Of a stretch of DNA of 64,000 nt, positions 27,860 to 43,547 are shown piece by piece. The notes beneath the pieces were generated by a model. That model did not search any database. It was not told the origin of the DNA and was given only the letters and a program-made list of their open reading frames with translations. Location: NCBI RefSeq assembly GCF_001280505.1, contig NZ_LBIO01000042.1, positions 1 to 64,000 on the forward strand. Reading direction: 5' to 3'. The stretch is from Mangrovimonas sp. TPBH4 (GTDB taxonomy: Bacteria; Bacteroidota; Bacteroidia; Flavobacteriales; Flavobacteriaceae). The stretch's first letter is position 1; each line of letters begins with the position of its first letter. The position numbers and the translations under genes were made by a program.

Positions 27860-29452
27860 ATGTTTAAATATCTTAAACAAGATTTGCCGGCTAGTATAGT
27901 CGTGTTTTTTGTGGCATTGCCCTTGTGTTTAGGGATTGCCTTGGCAAGTGGCGCCCCATTGTTTTCTGGGGTCATTGCCGGTATTATTGGTGGTGTTATA
28001 GTAGGGTCCTTAAGTGGCTCCAATATTGGAGTGAGTGGACCGGCTGCAGGTTTGGCCGCTATTGTATTAACAGCCATTGGAGCTTTAGGAGGATATGAAA
28101 ATTTCCTTGTAGCCGTAGTGCTTGGTGGAGTTATTCAATTGGTGCTTGGCTTTTTAAGAGCTGGGGTGATTGGTTACTATTTTCCTTCCTCGGTCATTAA
28201 GGGGATGTTGACAGGGATTGGAATCATTATTATTCTAAAACAGATCCCGCACTTTTTTGGTTATGATGCAGAACCTGAAGGGGCCGATAGTTTCCTGGAA
28301 GTGTCTGGGGAAAACAGTTTTTCTTCTATAGCCCATATTTTTGACAACCTCATTATGGGGTCTATGGTCATTGGAATTATTGGTTTGGCCGTAATTCTGA
28401 TTTGGGATAATGTGCTTGCCAAAAAGGCGAAATTTTTCAAAGTGATCCAAGGCCCTCTGGTAGCCGTTGTACTTGGGATAATATTTTTTGCTTTTACAGA
28501 GTCCAACAGTGTCTTGGGGATTTCCAATTCCCATTTGGTGAGTGTACCTATTCCGGATGACTTTAGTTCTTTTCTAGGGCAGTTCACCTTTCCAAATTTT
28601 GCAGCCATTACCAATCATGAAGTTTGGGTAACAGCCTTTACCATTGCTTTGGTAGCAAGTTTGGAAACTTTATTGTGTGTGGAGGCAACGGATAAGTTGG
28701 ATCCCCATAAAAATGTTACCCCAACCAATAGAGAGTTGTTGGCGCAAGGAACCGGAAACATTTTTTCTGGATTAATTGGAGGGCTTCCAATTACCCAGGT
28801 AATTGTTAGAAGTTCTGCCAATATCCAATCTGGAGGACGCACCAAATTGTCTGCCATCATCCATGGTATGTTATTGTTGATTTCCGTAATCTTGATTCCA
28901 AGATTGTTGAACATGATTCCATTATCCGTATTGGCAGCAATATTGTTGGTAGTTGGATACAAGCTTGCAAAGCCAAAATTGTTTATGGAAATGTACAAGT
29001 TGGGTTGGAAGCAATGGTTGCCATTTATCGTAACTGTGGTAGGAATTGTGTTTACAGATTTACTGGTAGGAATCAGTTTGGGATTGTTGGTGGGTATTGT
29101 TGTAATTCTATTGAAGAGCTACCAAAACTCTCACTTTTTGCATATTGAAGACAAAAGCAATGGCAAGCATAAAATAAAAATGACATTAGCAGAAGAGGTG
29201 ACCTTCTTTAACAAAGGAGCGATTCTTAAAGAATTGGACAGTTTGCCTCGCGACACGTATCTGGAGCTCGATTTGATGAAGACCCGCTATTTGGATCATG
29301 ATATTATCGAGATTCTTGAAGATTTCACGCATGTAGCAAAAGAACGCAATATTGATGTGAAACTGGTTTCCAAACGAGGTGTGGTAGAAAACCCTCCAAG
29401 TTTTGTAAAGTTCTTTAAAGAACGTCCAAAATCCAAATTAAGTTTAAGCTAA
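27860..29452 (+). CDS. SulP-family anion transporter, first copy
   Basis: A protein of 530 residues with about 12-14 hydrophobic segments (about 15-415). SulP signatures include FFVALPLCLGIALASGAP near the start, SGPAAGL (about 66-72), ANIQSGGRTKLSAIIHG (about 316-332) and NRELLAQGTGNIFSGLIGGLP. The C-terminus (about 430-525) is a degenerate cytoplasmic STAS domain. SulP proteins move sulfate, bicarbonate, oxalate or other anions. A beta-carbonic anhydrase in the same operon makes bicarbonate (BicA-like) transport the best guess. It is followed after 6 bases by a Usp gene. Substrate is inferred from context only. Confidence 0.88.
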   Translation: MFKYLKQDLPASIVVFFVALPLCLGIALASGAPLFSGVIAGIIGGVIVGSLSGSNIGVSGPAAGLAAIVLTAIGALGGYENFLVAVVLGGVIQLVLGFLRAGVIGYYFPSSVIKGMLTGIGIIIILKQIPHFFGYDAEPEGADSFLEVSGENSFSSIAHIFDNLIMGSMVIGIIGLAVILIWDNVLAKKAKFFKVIQGPLVAVVLGIIFFAFTESNSVLGISNSHLVSVPIPDDFSSFLGQFTFPNFAAITNHEVWVTAFTIALVASLETLLCVEATDKLDPHKNVTPTNRELLAQGTGNIFSGLIGGLPITQVIVRSSANIQSGGRTKLSAIIHGMLLLISVILIPRLLNMIPLSVLAAILLVVGYKLAKPKLFMEMYKLGWKQWLPFIVTVVGIVFTDLLVGISLGLLVGIVVILLKSYQNSHFLHIEDKSNGKHKIKMTLAEEVTFFNKGAILKELDSLPRDTYLELDLMKTRYLDHDIIEILEDFTHVAKERNIDVKLVSKRGVVENPPSFVKFFKERPKSKLSLS

Positions 29453-29458
29453 ACACTT

Positions 29459-30253
29459 ATGGAGTCCAAGGCACAACGCATATTGGTGCTTTCAGATTTG
29501 GGTAGTACCACGGCTACTACCCTTAAGAGTGCTGTGAGTTTGGCTAATATGGTCAATGGCAGTATTGAGCTATTCCATGTAAAAAAGCCGGGAGACATTG
29601 TGCAAAAGGAAAATCAATTGTCTGCCATTCGTAGCATAAACGAAGAAAAGAATAGCACTAAAAAGAGCATTCAAAAAATGATCCAACCCATCGAGGAAGT
29701 TTATGGAATTACTATCCAATACAGCTTTGTTTTTGGGAATGTCAAAAATGAAATTGGGACCTATCTCAAGGAGCGACGTCCAGATATTATTGTCATGGGC
29801 AAAAGGCCGTCCAAACTAATAAGCTTAGGCGGTGATGGTTTAACCCAATTTGTAATGGAAGAGCACGAAGGACCTATCATGATATCCGGCCTAGAGAATG
29901 GTCTAGAGCCTAAACAACCTTTGTCTATGGGTGTTTTTAATGGCTCCTATTCTGCTTTTGCAAAAAGCTTACTGCCTTTTGCAGACCAACCTATAAAGTC
30001 CTTCAAAATTGCAAATGGGGATGATTCTACAAGTGAAACTGAACAGTCTACGGATCATGAAGCTGTGGAATTTGTTTTTGAGGCAGGAGATCAAACCATT
30101 AAAAATATGTCCAATTACCTTTCTAAAAGCAGTGTAAATTTGTTCTGTATAGATAGGGGGCAGTCAAAAACTAAGAAGAATACAAAATCAAAACATACAG
30201 ATATTTATAATATTGTAAATAATCTTAATATCTCCCTTTTATTGTCGATTTAA
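29459..30253 (+). CDS. universal stress protein (UspA)-like protein
   Basis: A protein of 264 residues. The first half (about 8-150) is a Usp domain: RILVLSDLGSTTATTLKSAVSLANM, FGNVKNEIGTYLKERRPDIIVMGKRPSKL, with a degenerate version of the usual ATP-binding Gly motif. The second half is weakly conserved and probably a decayed second Usp fold. It lies between the SulP and carbonic anhydrase genes (6- and 38-base gaps) and could respond to cell energy or CO2 status. Cytoplasmic; function unknown. Confidence 0.75.
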   Translation: MESKAQRILVLSDLGSTTATTLKSAVSLANMVNGSIELFHVKKPGDIVQKENQLSAIRSINEEKNSTKKSIQKMIQPIEEVYGITIQYSFVFGNVKNEIGTYLKERRPDIIVMGKRPSKLISLGGDGLTQFVMEEHEGPIMISGLENGLEPKQPLSMGVFNGSYSAFAKSLLPFADQPIKSFKIANGDDSTSETEQSTDHEAVEFVFEAGDQTIKNMSNYLSKSSVNLFCIDRGQSKTKKNTKSKHTDIYNIVNNLNISLLLSI

Positions 30254-30291
30254 AATTGGCCTTTAAGTGAGTTGTAAAACCAAATAGAATT

Positions 30292-30921
30292 ATGAAAGCA
30301 CATACCAAAGAGACACAAGCAACAATGACCCCAGAAAAGTCGTTGACATTTTTAAAAGAAGGGAATTTAAGATTTCAGAATAACCTAAAGGCCAATAGAA
30401 ATTTATTGGAGCAGGTAAATGACACTAGTGAGGGGCAGTTCCCTTTTGCAACTATATTAAGTTGTATTGACTCTAGGGTGTCTGCAGAACTTGTGTTCGA
30501 TCAGGGATTAGGAGATATTTTTAGTGTGCGAATTGCTGGTAACTTTGTAAACGAAGATATTTTAGGAAGTATGGAATTTGCCTGTAAATTGGCAGGCACC
30601 AAACTTATCGTCGTGCTGGGACATACCAGTTGCGGAGCCGTTAAAGGAGCCTGCGATCATGCCGAAATGGGAAATTTAACCAAGTTGATCGAAAAAATTA
30701 CACCTGCGGTGAATAGCGTTACAGAACCAACCGATGCAAGTTTAAGAACTTCAAAGAATTTGGAATTTGTAGATGCCGTTTCCGAGAAAAACGTTCATTT
30801 AACCATTGATAGAATTCGTAAAGAGAGTTCTATACTTGATGAGATGGAAAAGAATGGAGAAATTAAGATTATTGGTGCCATGTATGATATCAATACAGGA
30901 GCTGTAACCTTTTATGAGTAG
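30292..30921 (+). CDS. beta-carbonic anhydrase, first copy
   Basis: A protein of 209 residues. Zinc ligands and catalytic dyad are intact: Cys58 and Asp60-Arg62 in CIDSR, His111 and Cys114 in HTSCGAVKGA. It interconverts CO2 and bicarbonate. There is no export signal, so it is cytoplasmic, where it could process bicarbonate imported by the adjacent SulP protein. It is the last gene of a SulP-Usp-carbonic anhydrase operon ending in the terminator at 30959-30992. It is similar in kind but clearly divergent from the second copy at 32953. Confidence 0.93.
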   Translation: MKAHTKETQATMTPEKSLTFLKEGNLRFQNNLKANRNLLEQVNDTSEGQFPFATILSCIDSRVSAELVFDQGLGDIFSVRIAGNFVNEDILGSMEFACKLAGTKLIVVLGHTSCGAVKGACDHAEMGNLTKLIEKITPAVNSVTEPTDASLRTSKNLEFVDAVSEKNVHLTIDRIRKESSILDEMEKNGEIKIIGAMYDINTGAVTFYE

Positions 30922-30958
30922 GAATTACATAGCCCATTTCTTTAAATAAAATATGAAC

Positions 30959-30992
30959 AGCGCTGGCATTAATGTCGGCGCGCTTTTTTTTA
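30959..30992 (+). terminator. Rho-independent terminator of the first SulP-carbonic anhydrase operon
   Basis: AGCGC pairs with GCGCT around an inner GGCA / TGTC stem and is followed by a T run. Confidence 0.75.
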
Positions 30993-31086
30993 AAATTTTG
31001 ACTTTTAGAATGAAAGTGTCTTGTAGGTACTTTTTTATTTATATTATAAAGGTTAACTTAGATAAACGATTTTAAAAGCATATAAG

Positions 31087-32946
31087 TTGAACAAAATTTT
31101 CTCCAATTTTAAGGGCGATCTGTTCGGTGGTCTTACGGCAGGGATAGTGGCATTGCCCTTAGCTCTTGCATTTGGAGTGAGTTCGGGACTGGGCCCCAGT
31201 GCGGGGCTTTATGGCGCAATTTTTTTAAGTTTCTTTGCAGCCCTATTGGGAGGTACCAATACGCAAATCTCTGGGCCAACAGCCCCAATGACAGCAGTGA
31301 GCATGGTGATTATTGCTGGGATTATTGCGGCCAATGATGGGGATGTGCAAAAGGCACTACCTACTATTTTAATTGTGTTTTTACTTTCGGGTATTATGCA
31401 AATAGGATTGGGGGTTTTAGGGATTGGAAGATATATTCGCTATATCCCTTACCCTGTGGTTTCTGGGTTTATGTCGGCCATCGGGGTAATCATTATTGTG
31501 ACTCAAATCCTGCCTTCTTTGGGATATTATCCAAAGGAAGATTCGGTTTATGTAGAGCAGTTTAGGGCGAGGTCGGAAGAGGTCATTCTTGAAAATATTT
31601 TGAAAGAAGAAGCAGGGGAAGGTATTTTGGTTTTGGAAGACTTTAGAGAAACCATCAATAGAGCTGAAGGAATTACAGAAGCTGATATCGTTTTGGGGTC
31701 AGAGACCTTGGCGGCTAATGAAGCTTCTGGTGTTGTAGGTGCTATTAAAGTGTTGCCGAGGGCGTTGATGAATATAAATTGGTTGGAACTGGTTTTGGCC
31801 TTGGGGACAATTTTCATTATTTATGGGTTCAAGCGTATTACCAAAGCGGTGCCTAGTACTTTGGTGGCCTTGTTGGTTATGTCGACCATTGCTATTGTTT
31901 TCGGGTTGGATTATAGACCGATACAACAGATTCCAAGTGGATTTCCAATGCCTAACCTGGAAATGTTTACCAATTTCAGCCTAAAGCAATTAACACCTTA
32001 TATTTTTACGGCGCTTACATTAGCCCTCCTTGGAGCTATTGATTCTCTATTAACAAGTGTTGTAGCCGATAATATGACCAAAACCAAACACCGGCCTAAT
32101 AAGGAGTTGGTTGGACAGGGAATTGGGAACAGCATCGGGGCTATTTTTGGGGGAATTCCAGGGGCTGGTGCCACTATTAGGACGGTTGTAAATATCCAAT
32201 CGGGAGGAAAAACTAAACTCTCGGGGATGGTCGCGGGTTTGGTCTTGCTTATTATTTTGTTGTTGTTGGGGCCAATAGCTTCCAAAATCCCGGCAGCAGT
32301 TTTGGCTGGAATTCTGATTACTGTAGGAATCGGGGTAATGGATTATAAAGGGTTGAAAGCCATTCCGAGTTTGCCTAGGGATACACGAATAGGGCCATTA
32401 TGGCTGAGCTCTGAAGTGTTGATCATGATAGTGGTTTTAGTCCTTTCTTCTCTTTGGAATTTGGTGTATGCCGTAGGGATTGGGCTTATCATTGCCTCAC
32501 TTATGTTTATGAAAAAGATTGGTGACCTCACCGCCGAACGGTCCGATGTTAAACCTTTGTCGGAAGAAAAGGGCTGGGCCAATGACTGTGGGTTTACGGA
32601 TGAAATGAAGGCGAAAGTATATGTGAAACATGTTAAGGGGCCATTATTTTTTGGATCTACAAGCGAGTTTCAAAAGTTGGCATCGCAAATCCCAACCTCG
32701 GCCAAAACAGTGGTAATGCGTCTTGGCCGTATGCAGTATGTCGATCAATCGGGCCTTTACGCTTTTGAGGAGGTGGTTCAGGAGTTGAGTAAAAATGGGA
32801 TAACGATTTTGTTGGTGGACCTATTGAAACAACCGCGTTATATGATGGAGCGGATTGGAATTATACCGGAGCTAATCCCAGAGGAGCATATTTTTACAGC
32901 TTTTAAGGACAGTACACAATGGATAAAAAGTAACGTGACAAATTAA
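31087..32946 (+). CDS. SulP-family anion transporter, second copy, with STAS domain
   Basis: A protein of 619 residues, starting with TTG at 31087; this start begins the natural membrane segment (NKIFSNFKGDLFGGLTAGIVALPLALAFG). SulP signatures are SGPTAPMTAV, NKELVGQGIGNSIGAIFGGIPGAGAT and NIQSGGKTKLSGMVAG. A full STAS domain is at about 510-615 (FFGSTSEFQKLASQIPTSAKTVVMRLGRMQYVDQSGLYAFEEVVQEL). An insertion of about 85 mostly polar residues at about 145-230 interrupts the membrane region. It is 89 aa longer than the upstream copy, so they are not a recent tandem duplication. Bicarbonate transport is inferred from the carbonic anhydrase 6 bases downstream. Confidence 0.88.
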   Translation: MNKIFSNFKGDLFGGLTAGIVALPLALAFGVSSGLGPSAGLYGAIFLSFFAALLGGTNTQISGPTAPMTAVSMVIIAGIIAANDGDVQKALPTILIVFLLSGIMQIGLGVLGIGRYIRYIPYPVVSGFMSAIGVIIIVTQILPSLGYYPKEDSVYVEQFRARSEEVILENILKEEAGEGILVLEDFRETINRAEGITEADIVLGSETLAANEASGVVGAIKVLPRALMNINWLELVLALGTIFIIYGFKRITKAVPSTLVALLVMSTIAIVFGLDYRPIQQIPSGFPMPNLEMFTNFSLKQLTPYIFTALTLALLGAIDSLLTSVVADNMTKTKHRPNKELVGQGIGNSIGAIFGGIPGAGATIRTVVNIQSGGKTKLSGMVAGLVLLIILLLLGPIASKIPAAVLAGILITVGIGVMDYKGLKAIPSLPRDTRIGPLWLSSEVLIMIVVLVLSSLWNLVYAVGIGLIIASLMFMKKIGDLTAERSDVKPLSEEKGWANDCGFTDEMKAKVYVKHVKGPLFFGSTSEFQKLASQIPTSAKTVVMRLGRMQYVDQSGLYAFEEVVQELSKNGITILLVDLLKQPRYMMERIGIIPELIPEEHIFTAFKDSTQWIKSNVTN

Positions 32947-32952
32947 ACGAAA

Positions 32953-33579
32953 ATGGATTTAAATAGAGTTTTTGAAAATAATGAAAAGTGGATTCAGGAG
33001 AAATTAGCCAAGGATGAAAACTACTTTAATAAGCTTGGGAAAGGGCAAAGTCCTCAGTTTTTGTATATAGGCTGTTCCGATAGCCGAGTAGATGTGGAAG
33101 GGCTCATGGGATTGGAACCAGGGGAAGTATTTGTGCACCGAAATATTGCAAATATGGTGATTGCTACCGATTTAAATGCCATGTCGGTCATAGAATATGC
33201 CGTGAACCATTTAAAGGTAGCCGATGTGGTTGTTTGTGGGCACTATGCCTGTGGCGGTGTTAAGGCAGCCATGCTGTCGGAGGATTTGGGATTGTTGAAC
33301 CCTTGGTTGCGAAGTATTAGGGACGTGTACCGCTTGCATACTGAAGAGCTCAATGCCATTGACAATGAAGACCAGCGGTATGATCGTTTAATTGAGCTTA
33401 ATGTTCAAGAGCAGTGTGTCAATTTAATTAAAACGGCCGCCATTCAAAAGGCAGTTAGGGAGCGTGGCTTAAAAGTTCATGGCTGGGTGTTTGATGTGCA
33501 TTCAGGGAAACTCATTGACTTGAAAATTGATTTTACAGCTATATTGGAAAACATCCGGAAGATTTATCATTTGGACTAA
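32953..33579 (+). CDS. beta-carbonic anhydrase, second copy
   Basis: A protein of 208 residues with all catalytic residues: Cys41 and Asp43-Arg45 (CSDSR), His97 and Cys100 (HYACGGVKAA). The N-terminus (FENNEKWIQEKLAKDENYF) and C-terminus (VHGWVFDVHSGKLIDL) resemble the Can / CynT-type bacterial carbonic anhydrases, unlike the first copy. It is cytoplasmic and cotranscribed with the second SulP gene (6-base gap). Two SulP-carbonic anhydrase pairs side by side point to active bicarbonate handling. Confidence 0.93.
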   Translation: MDLNRVFENNEKWIQEKLAKDENYFNKLGKGQSPQFLYIGCSDSRVDVEGLMGLEPGEVFVHRNIANMVIATDLNAMSVIEYAVNHLKVADVVVCGHYACGGVKAAMLSEDLGLLNPWLRSIRDVYRLHTEELNAIDNEDQRYDRLIELNVQEQCVNLIKTAAIQKAVRERGLKVHGWVFDVHSGKLIDLKIDFTAILENIRKIYHLD

Positions 33580-33638: not shown

Positions 33639-34892
33639 TTATTTCAAAATAACTTTTTTACTTATTGTATAATCTCCAGAGGTGAAATTAAGCATGTATA
33701 CTCCTTTTTGTAGGTGAGATAGATCTAGGGTTTTATTGTAAAACCCTTGTTGGCTAGAAAGTGATGTTTCTAATATTTTGCTTCCTTGCATGGAATAGAT
33801 GGTAAGATGGTTGGTGCCAGATTTAGCGACATCATAAATCAAGTTGATTTTACCATCGGAAGAAGGGTTTGGATAAACACCAAAAGTAACATTGTTGTCT
33901 AGTTCCTCTACTCCCAATGACTGGGTTACATTTTCAAAGGCAAAAGAAAGGTTTCCTGTGGAGCTACCTTCAAAAGCGGTGAAGTAAATCCTGTAAACCG
34001 AGTTGTCAGCATATTTTACATAATAAGCCATATCAGAATTCACATCATATTCTACTGATGAAACATAGGTTTTCCAATCGCTACCAATAGTATTGATCTC
34101 ATCGGAATAGGTTAAGGTTGGATTTTCTGTAGCGCCTTCCATTTCTTCATTTTGAGCTACAGTAACTTGGTCATTGTGTAGTACCCCTGTTACTGGCCAA
34201 AACAAAGAACCATTACCATTGTAATCTGAAATGTATTTTGTAGCAACAAAGTCCCAATCTGTTGTGGCCGGTTGAGCATAAACTTCTTCTCCCGTTTCCA
34301 AGGAATAGAAGTTATAGGTGTTGTTGGGGTTATTTGTATTTTCTAGTGTTACCGTGGTATCTTCTCCCCAAGCATTGGTACTGGTGTTCCAAGTGGCATA
34401 TTTAAATGTGTAACCATTAAAAGCATCCTGGTTTAAAAATTTACGATAGGTGCCATCTGCATATTTTAAAACAAAAATAACTGAGCCTTCAATGTGTTGG
34501 TTATCTGGGTTGTATTCTCCAAAACCATATGTTGCGGAACCATTGTCAAATGCACCTGTCCAAGTGGTTTCGCTATTGTACAATTGCGTCCATTCGGATT
34601 GGGCTTCAGTTGTTACTGGTATGTCATCCCAGGCGTTTGTATTGGTAGTTACCTCATATACTTTAATCCCTGCGTGATCATTTATGCGAATTCCTATATC
34701 GTCTTGTCCAGTTCTAAGGAAAGCTAGGTCCCAAACACTCCCGGGATAGGAGGTAGTGGTTAGGTTACTTAGTTTAAAGTAAACTTGGTTTGCATAGGAA
34801 GCCCCCATACTAAGATCTATATCTTGTTGGGCTTTCATATTAAGGATGCTTAGGAGCATCAAAAAAAGAGTGCAATGTAAAGTTTGTTTCAT
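33639..34892 (-). CDS. HmuY-like protein with T9SS type A sorting domain
   Basis: A secreted protein of 417 residues. The signal peptide (KQTLHCTLFLMLLSILNMKAQ) precedes two HmuY-type beta domains (about 25-190 and 200-330), marked by SVWDLAFLRTG and TTDWDFVATKYISDY. The C-terminal 73 residues (YPNPSSDGKINLIYD ... QGVYMLNFTSGDYTISKKVILK-like end) are a type A T9SS sorting signal. HmuY proteins capture heme at the cell surface and pass it to a TonB receptor; the heme ligands cannot be assigned here. It lies next to an operon encoding a HmuY lipoprotein and the receptor, has its own promoter and is terminated at 33583-33613. Confidence 0.82.
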   Translation of the reverse strand: MKQTLHCTLFLMLLSILNMKAQQDIDLSMGASYANQVYFKLSNLTTTSYPGSVWDLAFLRTGQDDIGIRINDHAGIKVYEVTTNTNAWDDIPVTTEAQSEWTQLYNSETTWTGAFDNGSATYGFGEYNPDNQHIEGSVIFVLKYADGTYRKFLNQDAFNGYTFKYATWNTSTNAWGEDTTVTLENTNNPNNTYNFYSLETGEEVYAQPATTDWDFVATKYISDYNGNGSLFWPVTGVLHNDQVTVAQNEEMEGATENPTLTYSDEINTIGSDWKTYVSSVEYDVNSDMAYYVKYADNSVYRIYFTAFEGSSTGNLSFAFENVTQSLGVEELDNNVTFGVYPNPSSDGKINLIYDVAKSGTNHLTIYSMQGSKILETSLSSQQGFYNKTLDLSHLQKGVYMLNFTSGDYTISKKVILK

Positions 34893-34932
34893 AATGTAAT
34901 AATTAGGGTTGGTTATTGATTTTGTATGTCTT

Positions 34933-34962
34933 GAAAATTAATTTGGGCACTTTAGATCCAAA
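34933..34962 (-). promoter_or_regulatory. promoter of the T9SS-sorted HmuY-like gene
   Basis: On the minus strand, TTTG (34962-34959) is spaced 18 bases from TAATTTTC (34940-34933), one mismatch from the Bacteroidota -7 consensus. A TTTAGAT element at 34951-34957, similar to the heme-locus palindrome at 38420-38435, lies next to the -33 box. Confidence 0.5.
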
Positions 34963-35102
34963 TTTTGACAGTTTTTTCTGCTTAAATTTAGTTTTTTTCT
35001 CTTTGGTACAACGGCTTTTTGAGTTATGATTTGTTGCTTTTAAATAGATTTCCTGTAGGAATTAACTTAATTGCTTGATATGTGCTGTTTTGGGTTCTTG
35101 AG

Positions 35103-35135
35103 AAAAAAAAGCCACTGTATTTCAAGTGGCCTTTG
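35103..35135 (-). terminator. terminator of the TonB receptor-HmuY operon
   Basis: On the minus strand GCCACT and AGTGGC flank a short loop and are followed by TTTTTTTT. It lies 6 bases after the stop codon of the HmuY lipoprotein gene. Confidence 0.8.
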
Positions 35136-35140
35136 TTACA

Positions 35141-36232
35141 TTATTGTAGTAGTGAGTATACAAACTCTGGGTTTCCTCGTTCACCGGATTCGGTGGACAT
35201 TGCCAAGAATTTTAGTTTGTAAAGGTTGCCATCGGTATCGCTGATGATGTAGAATACATTTTCTTTTACAGAAGGGGAAGCGCTAGGACCTCCGCCATTT
35301 CTCCAGCTGCTTCCAATAGTTCTTTGGTCATTGTATACAAAATTGGCGTCAACAACATTAGCTAACGTAAATTCATTATAGGTTAATTCTGTTTCAACTT
35401 CAGAATCGATCATATAAATGCCAACGTTGGCTTTGGTGTTATTCACCACAAAATCGGAATATCCATAAGCACCGTAACCTTCGATGAGGTTCGTGAATAC
35501 TGTGAAGTTTAAATCCCAGTTCGTGGCCGCTGGCTCAACAGCTACTTCATTGTTGGTATTGAAGCTAAAGAAGGTGAAATTATGCTCGTTGTTTTTTGAA
35601 ATAACAACTTCTTCATGGGTGGTATCATCCAAGTTGGCATATTGCAATACATAGTCGTTACCGTCTTTTAAAACGCGAATTTTCATCCATCCTCTTGATT
35701 CACCGGTTACGGCAATGGTACCAGTTTCTGGAGTTTCTGTGCCAACTTCATAGCCTAAGTTTAATAGGTATACTTTGTTGTCGGCATCATTTTCTGAAAT
35801 CGTGGCAATGGCGGTTTCAGAAATATCACCTGATGGAGCGTCTACAAAGGCTGCACTCGCCGCTTGAAAGGTTCCAACCGCAACTTGAGGTTGTAATTGC
35901 TGTACTTCCTGGTCGCTAGAGCTTACCGCATCAATATCGGTTGAGGTTAAAGCCGCAGTAGCCATGTAGATAGATCCGTTGATGGTCACTTTGAATTCAT
36001 CACCAGAATAAAATCCTAGGTCCCAAGAATCGCGTTGTACACTAGTGCTGGTGTTGGTGCTCAAATCTACATACACTTGGTTTTGTTGGTTTGGGCCTCC
36101 TACCTCTGGACTTACACTTGCGCCCTCAATTACAATGGAGATTGGGCCAGAGGGTGAATCATCATCACTACTACAGCTTGTAAAACCCAAGGTAGCAGCT
36201 ACGCATAATACAGTAAAAAGTTTGTTGATCAT
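35141..36232 (-). CDS. HmuY-family heme-binding lipoprotein
   Basis: A protein of 363 residues. The signal INKLFTVLCVAATLGFTSCSSDDD gives a lipobox at Cys20 followed by the acidic +2 region typical of exported surface lipoproteins in Bacteroidota. Two HmuY-like domains carry RDSWDLGFYSGD (about 65-76) and ATNWDLNFTVF. The last part (NGGGPSASPSVKENVFYIISDTDGNLYKLKF) matches the HmuY C-terminal strand. It probably presents heme or an iron complex to the TonB receptor encoded 13 bases upstream. The specific heme-coordinating residues could not be identified. Lipoprotein counterpart of the T9SS-exported form next door. Confidence 0.82.
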   Translation of the reverse strand: MINKLFTVLCVAATLGFTSCSSDDDSPSGPISIVIEGASVSPEVGGPNQQNQVYVDLSTNTSTSVQRDSWDLGFYSGDEFKVTINGSIYMATAALTSTDIDAVSSSDQEVQQLQPQVAVGTFQAASAAFVDAPSGDISETAIATISENDADNKVYLLNLGYEVGTETPETGTIAVTGESRGWMKIRVLKDGNDYVLQYANLDDTTHEEVVISKNNEHNFTFFSFNTNNEVAVEPAATNWDLNFTVFTNLIEGYGAYGYSDFVVNNTKANVGIYMIDSEVETELTYNEFTLANVVDANFVYNDQRTIGSSWRNGGGPSASPSVKENVFYIISDTDGNLYKLKFLAMSTESGERGNPEFVYSLLQ

Positions 36233-36245
36233 AATGGTATTAATT

Positions 36246-38381
36246 TTAAAAATTCAGATTATATAATAGTTTTAAATAAAATGAGCGTCCGTAACCCAAC
36301 AGCAGGGATTGACTACCTGAGGAGTGTGTGCCTCCAGAACTGAAATTGCTAATATTCACACTAGTGATATCCAGAAGGTTTCTGGCTCCTACAGTTGTAG
36401 TTAGTTTATTGTCAAAGAATGATTTTTTAACAGAGGCATCCAACCAACCATACCCATCGGTGGTTTGTTGCTCAAATGTGGCATAACCATTTTCATCTAG
36501 CCCCGATTGTACAAATCTTTGGGTAGGTCCTTGGTATTTAAAAAGCATGGTGATAAAAGTGTCCCATTTCTTTAGTTGATACGTGCTGCTTGTGTTGATT
36601 TGATAGGCATATAGAAAGTCATCATTTGAATTGACCTCTTTTTGGTGAATTTGACTAATTCCTTGCAGGGAAGCCCCTATTTTAAGTGTCCAACGATCTG
36701 CATTTAAGGAGTTGTCGGAGGTGATACCCCAAAGTTTATAACTATCAATATTAATAGCTTGGTCTAGCCGTGGAGAGAAGCTTACTGTAGCCCAAGCAAT
36801 TTTGTCTTGAATGTCTATATAGCTTAACTTTAGAACATTTTGTAATGAAATATTGTTGAAATAGCTGTGTTTTTTAAGGTTGATAAATGCAGTTATTCCG
36901 TTTTCTGGATTTAGGTTTTCATTTCCTCTATAATTATGATTTTCATTAAAAAGGATGTAATAGAGTTCTTCGAAATTTGGCGTTCTATAAGAGGTTCCTA
37001 CGTTAGCCCTAAGCTCAAAGCCATGGGACATTAAATAGCGAGCACTTAAACTACCTGTTACTTTAGAGTGGTACTTTGTATTGTACTCGTAGCGTAAACC
37101 AGGTCTTAAAGAAATGGCTTTGTTAAGTTGGTATTCTGATGAGCCAAATACGGCGTAGTTACTTTGTATTTTGGTTCTGTCTTCTTGAGTGTAACCTCCT
37201 GTGGCTTGAGTGTCGAAACCTTCATTATATTGGGTTTCATAGCCTAATTGAAAATTAAGATTTTTGGTTTTTACTAAGTTGCTTATAGTCCCTTTGGAAA
37301 AGAATACTTTACTGGACTGGTAGGTCTCGTTGGTTTCATTCGTTTTGTCTTCCGTAAGGATGTAATAAGTAAATTCATTCAGATTGCGTTCTTGTTGTTG
37401 ATAGGAAAAAGAGGCCTGATAGTTAGCACTAGAATTTAAACTTCCATTAAGATTTAGGTTGTTGACAAATCGATGGGTGTTAAATATTTTATCCTCTAAA
37501 GCATAGGGATTGCTGGTTTGTGATGCTACATCAATATTTGGATTGACTGTTCGGTTATAATAGTTTAGGGTCTCATTAAAATATTCAAACTTGTAATTAA
37601 GGTTGAAACGATCTGTTTTGTAATTGACCATAGCGCCACTAGTAAGTTGGGTTTTTGGCAACCATTCGTAACCACGTAAGCTATCATTTAAGTAATGATC
37701 TTTTCCTTGTCTATCATTCAAAAAACCTGCAAATTGGTTGCGGTTAAAGCCTATTTTAGCGAACCATTTTTCGGAGAGATTGTGGGCTAGGTTTATGCCT
37801 TGTATATGTCTTCCTTCATCAAACCAAGCATATTCATCGCTTACGGTTTCTTCTTGAACTAAGGCTTCCAGTTTCCAATTGCTATCAATGGATTTTTTGG
37901 TAATGATGTTAATGACACCAGAAACAGCATTGGCACCGTATTCTACACCCATGGCACCTTCCACAATTTCGATACGTTCAATATCGTCCAGGTTGATTTG
38001 CGTTAAATCTATGTTGTTACCAAGTCCGTTATCACTTACCAATGGGATGTTGTCTACGAGAATATTAAAGTATTGGGCATCCAAACCAAAAAAGGATATG
38101 GTTGATTTCCCTGTTTGCGAACTCGGTAGAATGGTAAGGTTCAGGTTGAAATTGAGCAAATCGGCTAAATTATTGGCTGCCTGATTGTCTATTTGTTCCC
38201 TTTTTATAACAATAACATTGTGCACCGATTTTTTGATGGACTGCGGATTGTACTGTCCCGTAACCACTACTTCGGTTAAGGCTTCAATTTGGGTAGAGTC
38301 TTGTTTCACTTCCTGTGAAAAAGCGAAGCAGCTTAAAAAAAGTGAAAAATAAATAACGATTTTATTTTTATTTAGACTCAT
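36246..38381 (-). CDS. TonB-dependent receptor, heme-receptor type
   Basis: A protein of 711 residues. A signal peptide (about 1-22), TonB-box-like EALTEVVVTGQ, plug domain (about 40-155; YGANAVSGVINIITKKS) and a 22-strand barrel. The barrel contains YRTP (about 464-467), His482 and NENLNPE, matching the FRAP / His / NPNL arrangement of heme receptors such as HmuR and HemR. It lacks the N-terminal carboxypeptidase-regulatory domain of SusC-type receptors. The HmuY lipoprotein gene follows by 13 bases in the same operon. It is transcribed divergently from the DUF6607 gene across a 73-base intergenic region with a palindrome. Its substrate is inferred to be heme or a similar iron complex. Confidence 0.88.
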   Translation of the reverse strand: MSLNKNKIVIYFSLFLSCFAFSQEVKQDSTQIEALTEVVVTGQYNPQSIKKSVHNVIVIKREQIDNQAANNLADLLNFNLNLTILPSSQTGKSTISFFGLDAQYFNILVDNIPLVSDNGLGNNIDLTQINLDDIERIEIVEGAMGVEYGANAVSGVINIITKKSIDSNWKLEALVQEETVSDEYAWFDEGRHIQGINLAHNLSEKWFAKIGFNRNQFAGFLNDRQGKDHYLNDSLRGYEWLPKTQLTSGAMVNYKTDRFNLNYKFEYFNETLNYYNRTVNPNIDVASQTSNPYALEDKIFNTHRFVNNLNLNGSLNSSANYQASFSYQQQERNLNEFTYYILTEDKTNETNETYQSSKVFFSKGTISNLVKTKNLNFQLGYETQYNEGFDTQATGGYTQEDRTKIQSNYAVFGSSEYQLNKAISLRPGLRYEYNTKYHSKVTGSLSARYLMSHGFELRANVGTSYRTPNFEELYYILFNENHNYRGNENLNPENGITAFINLKKHSYFNNISLQNVLKLSYIDIQDKIAWATVSFSPRLDQAINIDSYKLWGITSDNSLNADRWTLKIGASLQGISQIHQKEVNSNDDFLYAYQINTSSTYQLKKWDTFITMLFKYQGPTQRFVQSGLDENGYATFEQQTTDGYGWLDASVKKSFFDNKLTTTVGARNLLDITSVNISNFSSGGTHSSGSQSLLLGYGRSFYLKLLYNLNF

Positions 38382-38401
38382 TCTTGATTAGTTTTGCGGT
38401 G

Positions 38402-38409
38402 CAAATATA
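38402..38409 (-). promoter_or_regulatory. -7 box of the TonB receptor promoter
   Basis: TATATTTG on the minus strand is an exact Bacteroidota -7 box. Its -33 region coincides with the palindrome at 38420-38435. The predicted leader is about 14 bases before the ATG at 38381. Confidence 0.6.
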
Positions 38410-38419
38410 TCAATGTTAT

Positions 38420-38435
38420 TTTAAATCAATCTAAA
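38420..38435. promoter_or_regulatory. palindromic operator candidate in the divergent heme-locus promoter
   Basis: TTTAAATCAATCTAAA is an imperfect 16-bp palindrome (12 of 16 positions symmetric). It covers the -33 region of the TonB receptor promoter and lies 20 bases upstream of the DUF6607 start. Position and symmetry suggest an iron-responsive repressor site (Fur- or DtxR-like). Confidence 0.5.
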
Positions 38436-38454
38436 TAAGCATAAAATTTTCTCA

Positions 38455-39360
38455 ATGAAACGTATTTTCCCATTAGTGGCAGTGGCATTATTACTAAGTG
38501 TAAACCTAAATGCCCAAAACAAGAAGAAGCAGGACCAACAGGCCATCAAGGATATGTGTGGCTGTTATAAGGTGAACTTCAATTTCGCCGAAACTTTTGA
38601 GTATTCAGGAGATTCAACTTACGTGCCTTCCAAAACAAAACACGACAGAGGTTTGGAGTGGGTGCAATTGGTAGAGGATAGCAAGGATAAAATTTCCATG
38701 CAGCATTTATTGATCGTAGGACCATCGGATGCCCCTCATATTGTAAAGCACTGGAGACAGGATTGGGAATTCGAAAACACCGATTTGTATGTATACGACC
38801 ATAATAATAAGTGGAGCTACCAAAGTTTGCCGAAAAGTGAAGTAAAAGGACAGTGGACGCAAAAAGTATTTCAAGTGGATGATAGTCCTAGATACGAGGG
38901 AACCGCGACTTGGGTACACGTAGATGGCAAAAGCTATTGGGAAAATACCACTACGGCGCCACTTCCAAGACGTGAGTATACACAACGTAGTGATTATAAT
39001 GTAACTGTAAGAAGAAATCGCCACGAAATCACCGATAACGGTTGGATCCACAACCAGGACAACGACAAGTTAGTGCGTGAGGAAGGAAACGAAGATAAAG
39101 TGTTGGCTCAAGAAAAAGGATACAATACTTATGTAAAAGTAGACGATAGCAAGTGTAAAGCTGCACAGGACTACTGGAATACCAATCAGGCTAAATGGGC
39201 TTTGGTAAGAGCTAAGTGGGATGAAGTGTTTGCAAGACATAAAGACTTATATTTGGAGGAAAAAGTAGATAACAAAGTATTGTTTAAATATTTGTTTGAT
39301 GCTGAAAAATACCAAACAGCGGAGGAGATCAATCCGTTAATTGAATCTTTTGTAAAATAA
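38455..39360 (+). CDS. DUF6607 family exported protein
   Basis: A protein of 301 residues. Signal peptide KRIFPLVAVALLLSVNLNAQ, then a soluble domain with the DUF6607 features DMCGCYKVNFNFAETFEYS, QHLLIVG, HIVKHWRQDWEFEN and PLPRREYTQRSDYN. The domain also has many conserved His, Trp and Cys residues (the DMCGC pair near residue 33-37 could bind a metal or heme, but this is inference). It is periplasmic. First gene of the rightward half of the heme locus, followed after 4 bases by the ankyrin gene. No function has been established to my knowledge. Confidence 0.75.
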   Translation: MKRIFPLVAVALLLSVNLNAQNKKKQDQQAIKDMCGCYKVNFNFAETFEYSGDSTYVPSKTKHDRGLEWVQLVEDSKDKISMQHLLIVGPSDAPHIVKHWRQDWEFENTDLYVYDHNNKWSYQSLPKSEVKGQWTQKVFQVDDSPRYEGTATWVHVDGKSYWENTTTAPLPRREYTQRSDYNVTVRRNRHEITDNGWIHNQDNDKLVREEGNEDKVLAQEKGYNTYVKVDDSKCKAAQDYWNTNQAKWALVRAKWDEVFARHKDLYLEEKVDNKVLFKYLFDAEKYQTAEEINPLIESFVK

Positions 39361-39364
39361 ACTT

Positions 39365-40846
39365 ATGAATAGTTGTTTTAAATCCTGTATCCTCGGTGCT
39401 ATGTTGCTACTGGGGATACAGTCGTTTTCACAGGATAATGCTTTTTTAAGCCGTGACTTTTGGAAATCAAAGCCAGATGTTGCCGTTGTAAAAGCAAAAA
39501 TTGCTGAAGGAAATGACCCTGCCCAGGCCAATGCTAATAATTTTGATGCTGTGGTTTATGCCATTTTGGAAGGCGCACCATTCAATACCATAGTGTACTT
39601 AATGTCGCAGGAGGGTAATGGTGTGAATAAATTGACCCACGATGGGCGTACGTATATTTTCTGGGCGGCCTATAAAGGGAATACCGAAGTCATGGAGTAT
39701 TTGTTGCAACATGGTGCCAAAACCGATATCAAGGATGATAAGGGGAATACAATCTTAAATTTTGCGGCATCTTCAGGTCAAAAGAATACGCAGGTGTATG
39801 ACCTATGTTTGGCCAATGGAGCCAATTTAAAAAAGGACCTTACACCTAATGGAGCCAATGCTTTGCTGTTGGTGGCACCAAATGATTACGATTTTCAATT
39901 GGTTCAATACTTCCAAAAAAAGGGATTGGATATCAATAGCGTGGATGGAGATGGCAATGGGATTTTCAACTATGTTGCTAGAACAGGCAATTTGGAAGCC
40001 TTGAAAGCATTACAGGCTAGAGGGATAACAGGCAACAATCAAGCCTTTATGTTTGCTGCCTACGGAACTAGAGGAAAGACCAACGGTATTGAAGTTTATA
40101 AATTTTTGGAGGAACAAGGCCTTAATCCTAATGTGATTAATAGAGAAGGACAGACACCTTTACATATTTTGGCGTCAAGAAGCAAGGATGAAGAATTGAT
40201 CAACTATCTTTTAGAGAAAGGGTTGGACGTAAATGAAGAAGATCATGATGGGAATACTGCATTTATGAATGCCGCCTACCGTAATAGCTTGGATATGGTG
40301 CAATTGCTTTCTAAAAATCTTAAGGATATTAACCATGCCAACAAAAAAGGACAAACAGCCTTGTTTTACGCGGTGAAAGGAAATACAGTTGAAGTTGTTG
40401 ATTTCTTATTGAAAAGAGGAGCGAAAATTGACATTGTGGATACCGAAGGAAATAGTTTGGTGTATGCGCTGGTAAATTCTTATTCCAAAAGAAATCCTAA
40501 AGGGTTTTCGGAAAAATTAAGTAGCCTTGAAAAACATGGATTACAGTTGGGGCAAACCCAAAAGAATGGCAATACATGGTATCATATGTCTGTTGAAAAG
40601 GGGATTTTGGAGGTGTTGAAAATGGCTGCAGAAATGAAAATCGATGTGAATGCCAAAAATGGAGAAGGCAATACGGCCTTGCATTTGGCAGCCATGAAAG
40701 CTTCGGATGATAGCATCATGAAATTTTTGGTAGCACAAGGAGCCAACAGAACCCTTATGACCGAATTTGAGGAAACGGCCTATGATTTGGCCCAAGAAAA
40801 TGAATTGCTGAAGAGCAACAACATTTCAATAGAATTTTTAAAATAA
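39365..40846 (+). CDS. exported ankyrin-repeat protein
   Basis: A protein of 493 residues. Signal peptide NSCFKSCILGAMLLLGIQSFSQ indicates periplasmic export, unusual for ankyrin proteins. It is built almost entirely of about 12 ankyrin repeats (about 60-485; DGRTYIFWAAYKGNTEVMEYLLQHGAKTDIKDDKGNT, REGQTPLHILASRS, DHDGNTAFMNAAYRN, KKGQTALFYAVKGN, GEGNTALHLAA). Ankyrin solenoids are protein-protein scaffolds. Start chosen at the ATG 4 bases after the DUF6607 stop. It lies within the rightward heme-locus operon, suggesting it organises the DUF6607, DUF2271 and reductase proteins at the membrane. Confidence 0.85.
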   Translation: MNSCFKSCILGAMLLLGIQSFSQDNAFLSRDFWKSKPDVAVVKAKIAEGNDPAQANANNFDAVVYAILEGAPFNTIVYLMSQEGNGVNKLTHDGRTYIFWAAYKGNTEVMEYLLQHGAKTDIKDDKGNTILNFAASSGQKNTQVYDLCLANGANLKKDLTPNGANALLLVAPNDYDFQLVQYFQKKGLDINSVDGDGNGIFNYVARTGNLEALKALQARGITGNNQAFMFAAYGTRGKTNGIEVYKFLEEQGLNPNVINREGQTPLHILASRSKDEELINYLLEKGLDVNEEDHDGNTAFMNAAYRNSLDMVQLLSKNLKDINHANKKGQTALFYAVKGNTVEVVDFLLKRGAKIDIVDTEGNSLVYALVNSYSKRNPKGFSEKLSSLEKHGLQLGQTQKNGNTWYHMSVEKGILEVLKMAAEMKIDVNAKNGEGNTALHLAAMKASDDSIMKFLVAQGANRTLMTEFEETAYDLAQENELLKSNNISIEFLK

Positions 40847-40858
40847 GACATTGACAGA

Positions 40859-41344
40859 ATGAAGAATATACGTTTCATAGCAGTAGCATTGATAATGGTT
40901 TTTGGATTGGTTTCGTTTACCAATCAAGGGCCGTCTACCAAATATAAATGCATGATTCAATTGACCAATTATACCGGGGAAGGTGCGTATGTAGCCATTT
41001 CATTGATCAATCCAGAAGGAGACTATGAGCAAACTTTGTTTGTTCAAGGTGATGATAATGAGTGGTACAATACTTTGGAATCTTGGTGGAAGTTTTACGG
41101 TAAAAAACGAAACAATATCGATGCCATTACAGGGGCTACGATCTCTGGGGGAGAGCGTAGTATTAATGTTATTGAAATCGAAGATTCTAAAATTGATGCC
41201 GGATATAGCATCCGTTTTGAAACTGCAGTAGAAGATCAAGAATATTACACGCAGGACGTAGAGTTTCCGTTGACATCAGAAACTGTAAAAAGCAAAGCAG
41301 AAGGAAGAGGATTTATCCGTTATGTCCGCATGATGCCAAATTAA
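40859..41344 (+). CDS. DUF2271 family exported protein
   Basis: A protein of 161 residues. N-terminal hydrophobic signal (about 4-21, ending SFTNQG). The remainder is a single beta-rich domain with the DUF2271 signatures LTNYTGEGAYVAISLINPEGDYEQTLFVQG and IDAITGATISGGERSINVIEI. The family co-occurs with PepSY transmembrane reductases and iron-uptake genes, as here; its function is not settled. It ends 10 bases before the PepSY reductase gene, so the two are probably co-translated and interact in the periplasm. Confidence 0.82.
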   Translation: MKNIRFIAVALIMVFGLVSFTNQGPSTKYKCMIQLTNYTGEGAYVAISLINPEGDYEQTLFVQGDDNEWYNTLESWWKFYGKKRNNIDAITGATISGGERSINVIEIEDSKIDAGYSIRFETAVEDQEYYTQDVEFPLTSETVKSKAEGRGFIRYVRMMPN

Positions 41345-41354
41345 ACAATTTAAT

Positions 41355-43547
41355 ATGACCATTTCAATTTGGAGATACAGTCACCTTGCATTGGCTGTAT
41401 CTTCTGTTGTTTTTATCCTTTTGGCTTCCATAACCGGGGCTATTTTGGCATTTCAGCCTATTTCTGAACAAATGGCACCTTACAAGGTTGCCGATTTGGA
41501 TGAGGTTTCTTTGGCCCAAACTGTTAGGGTATTTAAGGAAAACTACCCAGAGGTTATCGAAATCAAGGTCGATGCCAATCATTTTGTAATGGCTTCGGTA
41601 TTTACGGAGGAAGGAGACAACTTAGAAGGGTATTTTAACCCAACTACGGCGGAGTTTTTAGGACAGAAACTGGAACCTTCCAAATTCTTTCAATGGGTTA
41701 CTAATTTTCATAGATCATTATTTTTAAAGGGTGTCGGTCGTTTTTTTGTGGGACTGTGTTCTTTTTTGTTGTTTGTAATTGCTATAACGGGGACTATTCT
41801 AATAGTGAAGCGACAAAGAGGCATCCAACAGTTTTTTGCTAAAATTGTCAACGAGAATTTCAGTCAGTATTGGCATGTGGTATTGGGACGTTTGTCTTTA
41901 ATTCCTATCATTATCATTACCCTTACTGGTGTATATCTGTCGCTGGAAAAATTCAATCTGTTGCCAGAAAGCAAGGAAAAGCACAGGATTGACCTTGATA
42001 TGATTTCAGAGCTTCCAAAACTGAATGTTTCGGAATTTGAACTGTTCCAAAACACACCACTTTCTCAGGTTAAAACCTTGGAATTCCCTTTCTCAGAAGA
42101 TGTGGAGGATTACTACACCTTAAAATTAAAACAGGAGGAGTTAGTGGTAAACCAATACACAGGGGAAGTATTAAGTAGCTTGAAAGCTCCCATGGTGGAA
42201 GTGGTTTCCAATCTTAGTATGGTATTGCATACAGGTAAGGGGAATACGGTTTGGTCTATAATTTTGGGCTTGGCAAGCATCAATATTTTGTTTTTTATCT
42301 ACTCAGGATTCGATATGACCCTGAAGCGTCGTGCTTCGGGATTGAAGAATAAATTCCAGAGAGACGAGTGTAAATACATCATTTTGGTAGGTTCGGAAAA
42401 TGGCTCGACGATGCATTATGCTAATGCGTTTTATAAACAATTGTTGGAAGCTGGTGAAAAGGTGTTTATTACTGAGTTGAATGACTACACCGAATTTACC
42501 CAAGCAGAACAATTTATCATTTTCACAGCAACTTACGGACAAGGAGAAGCGCCTACCAATGCCAATAAATTTTTGTATCGTTTGCAAAGTACTAAACAGC
42601 CCAATCCTTGTGGATATGCGGTAGTTGGTTTTGGGTCTTTGGCCTATCCGGATTTTTGTCAATACGCCCTTGATGTGGATAAGGCTATGGAATTTGATTT
42701 CGAGAAAATACTGGAGCCTACTGGCATTCATGATAAATCGATAGAAGCGTTCCATCAGTTTGTGGGTTTATGGAGTTCTAAAATTGGCGTGACTATGGAA
42801 CTTCCGCAGGAAGCCTTAGTTCAAAATAAAAAGCATACCAAAACATTTAAGGTTGTGGGGAAAACGACGGTTGCCGAAAGTCCAGACAATACCTTTCTAC
42901 TCAAATTAAAACCTAAAAAAACACAGAAATTTACCTCTGGTGATTTGTTGGCCATCTACCCAAAGGATGATTATAGGGAGCGTTTGTATTCTATTGGGAA
43001 GGTTGATGGAAACATCCAATTGAGCATTAAATTCTACGAACATGGTTTGGGCTCCAATTACCTAAACGATTTGGGTGCAGGAGATAAATTCAAGGCAAAA
43101 ATCATTAAAAACAGCACTTTCCATTTTCCGGTTAAAGCTCCAAAGGTCATACTTATTGGCAATGGAACGGGAGTGGCGCCTTTTTTGGGGATGCTCAATC
43201 AGAATACAAAACATAACGAAACACATCTCTATCTAGGTTTGCGTACTCAGGCGTCCTTTGAGTTATACGAATCACAAATAAATGAGTTGTTGCTTCAGGA
43301 AAAATTAAGTGATTTTGATTTGGTGCTTTCCCGCGAAGGGGATGCATGTTATGTACAGGATAAACTGCATGAAGATGCTTGGGAAATAGCCCAAGCGCTT
43401 TATAATGGCGGTGTGATTATGCTCTGTGGTTCCTTGGCGATGCAAAAAGGAGTGTTGGGCGTTTTGGAATCTATTTGTGTGGAGAATACCCACAAACCTT
43501 TGAGTTATTATCAAGACCGAGGGCAGCTTAAAATGGATTGCTATTAG
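41355..43547 (+). CDS. PepSY-transmembrane / flavodoxin / FNR fusion reductase
   Basis: A protein of 730 residues. The N-terminal half (about 1-325) is a PepSY-associated membrane unit with four helices (about 12-34, 130-152, 180-205, 300-318) and periplasmic PepSY loops. The C-terminal half is like CysJ / cytochrome P450 reductase: a flavodoxin domain (about 338-480; VGSENGSTMHYA, TYGQGEAPTNA), a FAD-binding domain (RERLYSIGK, about 535-545) and an NAD(P)-binding domain (GNGTGVAPFLGML, then MLCGSLAMQKGVLGVL). Electrons would go from cytoplasmic NAD(P)H through FAD and FMN across the membrane, probably to iron or heme handled by DUF2271 and DUF6607 proteins. Its stop overlaps the convergent cvpA stop by 4 bases. 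Confidence 0.88.
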   Translation: MTISIWRYSHLALAVSSVVFILLASITGAILAFQPISEQMAPYKVADLDEVSLAQTVRVFKENYPEVIEIKVDANHFVMASVFTEEGDNLEGYFNPTTAEFLGQKLEPSKFFQWVTNFHRSLFLKGVGRFFVGLCSFLLFVIAITGTILIVKRQRGIQQFFAKIVNENFSQYWHVVLGRLSLIPIIIITLTGVYLSLEKFNLLPESKEKHRIDLDMISELPKLNVSEFELFQNTPLSQVKTLEFPFSEDVEDYYTLKLKQEELVVNQYTGEVLSSLKAPMVEVVSNLSMVLHTGKGNTVWSIILGLASINILFFIYSGFDMTLKRRASGLKNKFQRDECKYIILVGSENGSTMHYANAFYKQLLEAGEKVFITELNDYTEFTQAEQFIIFTATYGQGEAPTNANKFLYRLQSTKQPNPCGYAVVGFGSLAYPDFCQYALDVDKAMEFDFEKILEPTGIHDKSIEAFHQFVGLWSSKIGVTMELPQEALVQNKKHTKTFKVVGKTTVAESPDNTFLLKLKPKKTQKFTSGDLLAIYPKDDYRERLYSIGKVDGNIQLSIKFYEHGLGSNYLNDLGAGDKFKAKIIKNSTFHFPVKAPKVILIGNGTGVAPFLGMLNQNTKHNETHLYLGLRTQASFELYESQINELLLQEKLSDFDLVLSREGDACYVQDKLHEDAWEIAQALYNGGVIMLCGSLAMQKGVLGVLESICVENTHKPLSYYQDRGQLKMDCY

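Follow-up and report, generated by a model that had tools for sequence, protein, structure and literature searches.

A haemophore locus of Mangrovimonas adjoins genes for a predicted flavin-linked membrane reductase

We have analysed a window of 64,000 nucleotides (contig NZ_LBIO01000042.1) from Mangrovimonas sp. TPBH4, a member of the Flavobacteriaceae, which contains a divergent locus of seven open reading frames (ORFs) related to haem acquisition (Table 1). Three ORFs read leftward and four rightward, the latter with intergenic gaps of 4, 12 and 10 bases, and the coordinates, strands and gaps are as given in an initial annotation made from the sequence alone. In Pfam the leftward products carry a type IX secretion system (T9SS) tail, HmuY, and a TonB plug and barrel; those of the rightward arm are DUF6607, ankyrin, DUF2271 and a fusion of PepSY_TM, Flavodoxin_1 and FAD/NAD domains. 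The useful names from NCBIfam were limited to the TonB, T9SS and flavodoxin families, and signal peptides and the lipobox were judged by eye. The individual parts are known, as is the leftward half together with DUF6607; what is new is the coupling of an ankyrin-DUF2271-PepSY block to the haemophore locus.

Table 1. Features of the divergent locus, in positions of the window
Feature	Position	Strand	Basis or remark
T9SS-tailed HmuY-like protein, predicted surface or secreted haem binder	33639..34892	-	Por_Secre_tail E = 1.3e-14
Terminator-like hairpin 3′ of hmuY	35107..35134	-	Consensus match
HmuY-family lipoprotein, RhuA/HfpY-like role	35141..36232	-	PF14064 E = 1.8e-28; lipobox by eye
TonB-dependent receptor, haem type (RhuR/HmuR-like)	36246..38381	-	Pfam plug and barrel; haem is the probable ligand
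Fur-box-like site over receptor start	38370..38388	none	15/19 to Riemerella consensus
Promoter-like site, Bacteroidetes type, receptor operon	38402..38429	-	TTG-17 nt-TATATTTG; overlaps Fur-like site
Fur-box-like site, shared promoter	38418..38436	none	15/19 to Riemerella consensus
RhuH-type haemophore (DUF6607)	38455..39360	+	Pfam E = 5e-101; His99 = RhuH axial ligand His96
Ankyrin-repeat protein, exported by eye	39365..40846	+	Pfam; putative scaffold or haem relay
DUF2271 carrier, flavinylation motif DAITGAT	40859..41344	+	Pfam E = 4e-42; Thr94 = predicted flavin mononucleotide (FMN) site
PepSY_TM-flavodoxin-FAD/NAD fusion	41355..43547	+	Predicted NAD(P)H-to-periplasm electron conduit

The DUF6607 protein of the window belongs to the RhuH haemophore family. 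The family profile has one strong match among solved structures, the haemophore PDB 8xjc (E = 2e-112), which is RhuH of Riemerella anatipestifer, and the window protein matches it over residues 7-298 (phmmer E = 1.5e-92), i.e. with homology along the whole length. The haem ligand of RhuH, His96, corresponds to His99 here, and the five propionate contacts Arg143, Tyr144, Arg170, Arg183 and Gln198 correspond to Arg146, Tyr147, Arg173, Arg186 and Gln201. Each of the six is invariant in 189 of 189 DUF6607 sequences, these being the window protein and two sets of 108 and 80 loci (see below) that overlap in part. Haem binding by the window protein itself is predicted from this homology. RhuH binds haem with a dissociation constant of 3.4e-11 M, using His96 as ligand, strips haem from haemoglobin (as do three homologues), and is secreted in outer-membrane vesicles (PMC11967795). 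In R. anatipestifer a promoter under Fur control separates rhuH from the oppositely oriented rhuR-rhuA (PMC11967795). The window matches this layout, with DUF6607 divergent from a TonB receptor and HmuY-like gene across a shared promoter with a Fur-box-like sequence, the box being recognized by consensus.

The initial annotation had treated DUF6607 as part of a periplasmic complex, and had counted three exported unknowns in the rightward arm. An unknown periplasmic subunit is ruled out by the homology with RhuH, whose studied member is secreted. Two of the three can now be named, DUF6607 as a RhuH haemophore and DUF2271 as a carrier flavinylated by ApbE. The word DUF6607 was not found in the open-access literature searched.

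In the leftward arm the receptor has His482 placed after YRTP (465) and before NENLNPE, as the initial annotation had read it. Boxes of the FRAP/NPNL type together with a histidine are a mark of haem receptors. Position 482 is His in all 49 receptors of the window's BLAST cluster; in a sister cluster, from the same kind of locus, Tyr takes its place in 40 of 41. Both elements of an HmuY/HmuR system are present, i.e. the HmuY fold (PF14064) and a TonB receptor with such boxes and the histidine. The profile of the HmuY lipoprotein matches the HmuY structures 8b6a, 6eu8, 3h8t and 3u22, and in the alignment of long-form HmuY proteins all 20 sequences have Met90, a putative ligand. For the T9SS-tailed protein Pfam gave the sorting tail, a DUF3244 match below cut-off, and no HmuY match in the window copy. 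Its alignment comprises 12 proteins, six of which match the HmuY model PF14064, and comparison of this alignment with that of the neighbouring HmuY gave a profile match of 99.7% probability (E = 2.6e-26), so this protein is an HmuY paralogue, as had been proposed. Its gene follows HmuY after 248 bp that contain a terminator-like hairpin (the consensus finds 12 such hairpins in the window, versus 8.8 in shuffles), and may therefore form a separate transcript from hmuY.

The remaining rightward genes have the character of an electron-transfer block. Proteins of the DUF2271 family are carriers known to be flavinylated by ApbE (PMC8238504). In the window protein residues 91-94 read TGAT and fit the ApbE motif [ST]GA[ST], and the last Thr of the motif is kept in all 108 DUF2271 copies at DUF6607 loci, the window included. 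In the PepSY half of the fusion His10, His119, His174 and His292 are invariant (22 of 22), and this half matches the FoxB structure 7abw weakly (E = 0.0047). By its PepSY_TM domain and conserved membrane histidines the protein would fit a FoxB-type di-haem reductase, with binding of haem b and reduction as predicted properties. The C-terminal half is akin to P450 reductase and sulfite reductase flavoproteins. Domains and invariant residues together support a predicted electron path from NAD(P)H through haem to flavin. The ankyrin protein is possibly a scaffold or a haem relay; a loose precedent is the ankyrin-containing Cj1386 of Campylobacter, a cytoplasmic protein that hands haem to catalase (PMC11442138).

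Assignment of the ankyrin protein as a Legionella-type effector was rejected, the NCBIfam matches lying far below their cut-offs. ApbE (PF02424) has two matches in the genome, on contig C30, and none in the locus. We note that the two (C30:160281 and 257779) have equal scores and lie 97 kb apart, in a genome listed at 6% contamination.

Regulation by iron is suggested by the promoter. The sites at 38370 and 38418 are the sole ones in the window with at least 15 of 19 positions matching the Riemerella Fur-box consensus (that of PMC5609570, with which the scan was made; PMC7976709 gives an E. coli-type box for Riemerella), and both are at the divergent promoter. The site at 38418 was equalled in 10 of 1000 shuffles. 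A Fur-like match better than shuffles (p<0.05) occurs in 42 of 67 divergent relatives, a count in which kinship is not corrected for. RNA sequencing of R. anatipestifer under iron limitation gave 4.71 for rhuH, and 3.31, 3.64, 2.41, 3.06 and 1.05 for B739_0173-0177, which are named receptor, hypothetical, 'Ankyrin', 'Predicted periplasmic protein' and 'Nitric oxide synthase' (PMC5429918; values taken as log2 ratios). From their names and order, B739_0175-0177 are probably the ankyrin-DUF2271-PepSY block.

The joining of a haem locus to a membrane reductase, which the initial annotation had pointed out, recurs in many genera. DUF6607 is present in 30 of 395 genomes of a class sample and in 81 of 249 of a family sample, with one copy in each. 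We compared about 7 kb around 108 of these genes (29 from the class search and 79 from the family search, excluding the window's own genome), some loci ending at a contig edge. Receptors of the window's two clusters were found in 90 of them and HmuY in 88; ankyrin was present in 42, DUF2271 in 44 and the PepSY fusion in 42. The 41 loci that have all four rightward genes carry them on one strand without exception, with median gaps of 3, 5 and 11 bases, and DUF2271 directly precedes the PepSY fusion save for one insertion. A second set, overlapping the first, comprised the best 80 loci by similarity to the window DUF6607, so that its share of the block is biased; here the block was found in 60 loci, and the receptor also in 56 of those 60. 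The block is thus repeatedly joined to the haem locus, for example in Flaviramulus, Winogradskyella, Lacinutrix, Maribacter, Aquimarina and Tenacibaculum. By contrast, DoxX, present in 22 of the 108 loci, never occurs with ankyrin (0/22, Fisher p = 4e-6; 0/7 in the 80-locus set).

At four loci (L107, L110, L102 and L218) there is an extra TonB receptor within the rightward operon, at the DUF6607/ankyrin or the DUF2271/PepSY junction.

Other flavin proteins can take the same position. In 13 loci that lack DUF2271 a gene for an FMN_bind protein lies directly after DUF6607 on the same strand. Seven of the 15 FMN_bind copies in all fit [ST]GA[ST] and the other eight have AGAT, so they are probably, though not surely, flavinylated. 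At six loci an FMN_bind gene has as its neighbour a small membrane protein in which an H-x-H is conserved (helices by eye), and at four of these the FMN_bind copy in question is the one that follows DUF6607. In a further arrangement, seen in two of the six loci of family f41, DUF6607 is preceded by a TonB receptor gene and one for PepSY_TM (in one locus with DUF4198). Three different electron-transfer arrangements, i.e. those with DUF2271, FMN_bind and the f41 PepSY_TM, therefore meet the same haemophore gene. Note that the H-x-H protein (e.g. L054:8620-9114 and L064:15375-15875) has no Pfam match and is possibly a membrane cytochrome.

The association was also examined from the other side. 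DUF2271 occurs above cut-off as 72 genes in 69 of the 249 family genomes, six weaker matches being left out of the linkage counts. DUF6607 is no further than 10 kb away from 43 of these genes, and the other 29 are unlinked to it. The initial annotation had allowed that the rightward genes might occur mostly without a haem or iron receptor; this is not the case, 58 of the 72 standing beside a TonB receptor, made up of 40 of the 43 linked genes (haem-type receptors, window included) and 18 of the 29 unlinked. DUF2271 is found together with DUF6607 in 51 of the 249 genomes (Fisher p = 3e-17), an excess driven by the linked copies. Among the 18 unlinked loci, L235 has a haem-cluster receptor and HmuY without DUF6607, and 15 have a receptor, a protein of about 450 residues, ankyrin, DUF2271 and, where the contig reaches, mostly PepSY. 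We call these 15 Xus-like on the grounds of gene order and size; they are near the make-up of XusABC (PMC13142918). Two of the 15 were tested for DUF4374, which gave a strong match in L249 (E = 1e-73) and one below cut-off in L236 (E = 0.0016). One of the 29 unlinked loci is an ApbE-DUF2271 fusion (L248:8858-10381).

A quick tree was calculated for 65 reductases (39 from haem loci, 13 from Xus-like loci and 13 from neither, copies of up to 600 residues being excluded), in which 20 of 62 inner forks are open. Eleven of the 13 reductases from a Xus context group without any haem-locus sequence; the other two, L240 and L245, fall outside the main group, again with no haem-locus sequence beside them. 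The Xus label requires three changes on the tree versus 12 when shuffled. The haem label requires nine versus 20.5, the nine arising because receptor-less sequences are intermixed. The reductases of the two homes are thus mostly separate on this tree.

Comparison with the closest known systems shows where the window departs from each. The RhuH-RhuR-RhuA system shares the divergent arrangement of haemophore gene and receptor-HmuY operon about an iron-regulated Fur promoter, and its haemophore is of the same family as the window DUF6607 with the same haem ligand (PMC11967795). It differs in that the available account describes no electron-transfer genes at rhuH (PMC11967795), and in R. anatipestifer the ankyrin, periplasmic and 'nitric oxide synthase' entries (B739_0175-0177) are away from rhuH (PMC5429918). 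The PepSY-like flavinylation clusters have PepSY_TM, DUF2271 with the ApbE motif, in some cases NAD-binding domains, and links to TonB and iron (PMC8238504); HmuY and ankyrin have no occurrences in the available text of that paper, and the window cluster lacks apbE. XusABC of Bacteroides likewise brings together a TonB receptor, a surface lipoprotein and a PepSY membrane protein, but serves siderophore piracy using DUF4374 (PMC13142918), whereas the window has a haem-type receptor, HmuY, RhuH, a flavodoxin-FNR fusion, ankyrin and DUF2271. No DUF4374 (XusB) was found among the proteins of the window locus at E = 0.01. The hfpR-DoxX-hfpY system of Flavobacterium psychrophilum has a TonB receptor and an HmuY-like haemophore (PMC9331221), and differs in its DoxX gene, which, as noted above, never shares a locus with ankyrin. 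The 19 kb iron-responsive region around hfpR includes 'transmembrane electron transfer' genes (PMC9331221), and may hold the ankyrin-DUF2271-PepSY block. The initial annotation had regarded the full combination as undescribed. The rhuH-rhuR-rhuA half is published; the whole, i.e. a haemophore locus coupled to ankyrin-DUF2271-PepSY, was not found in the open-access literature searched.

We propose that the locus provides haem acquisition under Fur-type iron regulation and brings its own supply of electrons across the envelope, directed at imported haem or at the iron in it, a reading to which we give about an even chance. By analogy with relatives, RhuH (DUF6607), the T9SS-tailed HmuY and the HmuY lipoprotein would take haem from haemoproteins, and, as is known for the family, the TonB receptor would carry it into the periplasm. 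This capture and import are well supported as family-level predictions. From the domains, electrons would pass from NAD(P)H to the FAD (flavin adenine dinucleotide) and FMN of the cytosolic flavodoxin-FNR half, then to two PepSY haems, and then to the covalent FMN of periplasmic DUF2271. The reduced flavin might convert the Fe3+ of imported haem to Fe2+, loosening the hold of its carrier or helping iron release, with the ankyrin protein as a scaffold or haem relay and FeoB as the putative importer of the freed iron. That haem is the electron acceptor we infer from the repeated joining, from the alternative flavin protein found after DUF6607, and from the tree. The single complex of the rightward proteins and the stripping of iron from haem, both suggested in the initial annotation, remain conjectural. 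The genome itself has strong FeoB_N matches, a single FecCD permease, and no match to PF01126, DyP or CobN (PF02514), which were the haem-degrading families searched, CobN being also the partner in HmuY/HmuR systems of the Porphyromonas type; periplasmic iron release would be compatible with this gene content. A more specific and tentative suggestion, doubtful as it stands, is that these are a haem-specific lineage of flavinylated PepSY transmembrane reductases, giving periplasmic iron from haem with neither haem oxygenase nor CobN chelatase, the ankyrin protein serving as haem relay from TonB receptor to reductase.

A number of observations weigh against the proposal of a haem-directed electron supply. 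The block has another main home, with Xus-like receptors, and 10 of the 29 DUF2271 loci unlinked to DUF6607 show no receptor at all. Without the linked genomes, the excess of DUF2271 in DUF6607 genomes is non-significant (p = 0.10). On the tree the haem-locus and receptor-less reductases are mixed. There is no ankyrin gene at 66 of the 108 DUF6607 loci, in some through contig ends, and at 51 both DUF2271 and FMN_bind are absent. In 31 of the 108 DUF2271 copies at DUF6607 loci the usual GAT is GET or GST. The studied RhuH is secreted rather than periplasmic (PMC11967795). R. anatipestifer seems to hold its haem genes and the block apart (PMC5429918), and with so many loci lacking the block it follows that haem use does not need the block adjacent. 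Lastly, the genome has its FecCD permease, so haem may enter by an ATP-binding cassette (ABC) importer; the standard route of haem use in Gram-negative bacteria is ABC import followed by a cytosolic haem oxygenase (introduction to PMC11967795).

A possible alternative, less probable in our view, is that the block is a general ferric reductase for iron from siderophores or other chelates, located here through shared iron regulation, haem entering the cytoplasm by an ABC importer such as one using the FecCD permease. The same block elsewhere follows a TonB receptor and DUF4374-like lipoprotein, XusC of Bacteroides has been modelled as a ferri-siderophore reductase (PMC13142918), and four loci have a second TonB receptor inside the rightward operon. 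On the other hand the haemophore gene is no more than 10 kb away from 43 of the 72 DUF2271 genes, the slot after DUF6607 can also be filled by another flavin protein, and on the tree the reductases from haem loci and from Xus-like loci are mostly apart. Alternatively, the electrons might set whether haem is ferric or ferrous as it passes from one carrier to another, and so drive loading or release at HmuY-type proteins rather than removal of iron. Methionine-ligand homologues of HmuY prefer haem under reducing conditions (PMC12106395), and the putative ligand Met90 is invariant in the long forms; but three short-form HmuY copies (by eye) have no such Met while short forms adjoin the same block, and HmuY is expected at the surface with DUF2271 in the periplasm. 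We consider this explanation improbable.

The kinship of the C-terminal half with P450 reductase flavoproteins suggests another role, in which the flavodoxin-FNR half feeds a cytosolic haem-degrading enzyme, as P450 reductase does with haem oxygenase, and PepSY is an anchor. The four invariant membrane histidines, the placement of DUF2271 directly before the reductase in the complete loci (with the one insertion) and the lack of a PF01126 match make this very unlikely. There is least to be said for two unrelated operons divergent by chance, although R. anatipestifer seems to separate them (PMC5429918) and some loci have one arm alone. We reject chance adjacency on the grounds that the adjacency is conserved in many genera and that a Fur-like site lies in the shared promoter, beyond shuffles in 42 of 67 relatives before any correction for kinship.

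The haemophore-reductase cluster is a concrete candidate route for haem past the outer membrane in Flavobacteriaceae. If the proposed electron supply to haem is correct, some flavinylated PepSY systems would gain a substrate, and the iron regulation of the Riemerella genes named 'ankyrin' and 'nitric oxide synthase' would be accounted for.

Several other features were seen near these loci. In one locus (L134:5167-7066) genes for a periplasmic binding protein and a FecCD permease come after DUF6607, which places the classical ABC route beside the haemophore. Two small families with several cysteines and no visible signal peptide recur at the 108 DUF6607 loci, DUF6686 at 16 and a family of about 118 residues at 15 (examples of the two families are L102:18697-19053 and L074:10985-11335); neither was seen among the listed ORFs that flank the locus in the window. 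Adjacent to the locus, window positions 27860-33579 encode two SulP-like transporters, a UspA-like protein (by eye) and two carbonic anhydrases. Near the DUF6607 haem loci SulP clusters occur at 15 of the 108 and carbonic anhydrase clusters at 18. In L228 the ankyrin-DUF2271-PepSY genes come right after a SulP-like transporter (by eye), as though the same chromosomal slot had once held receptor, HmuY and DUF6607 and then lost them.

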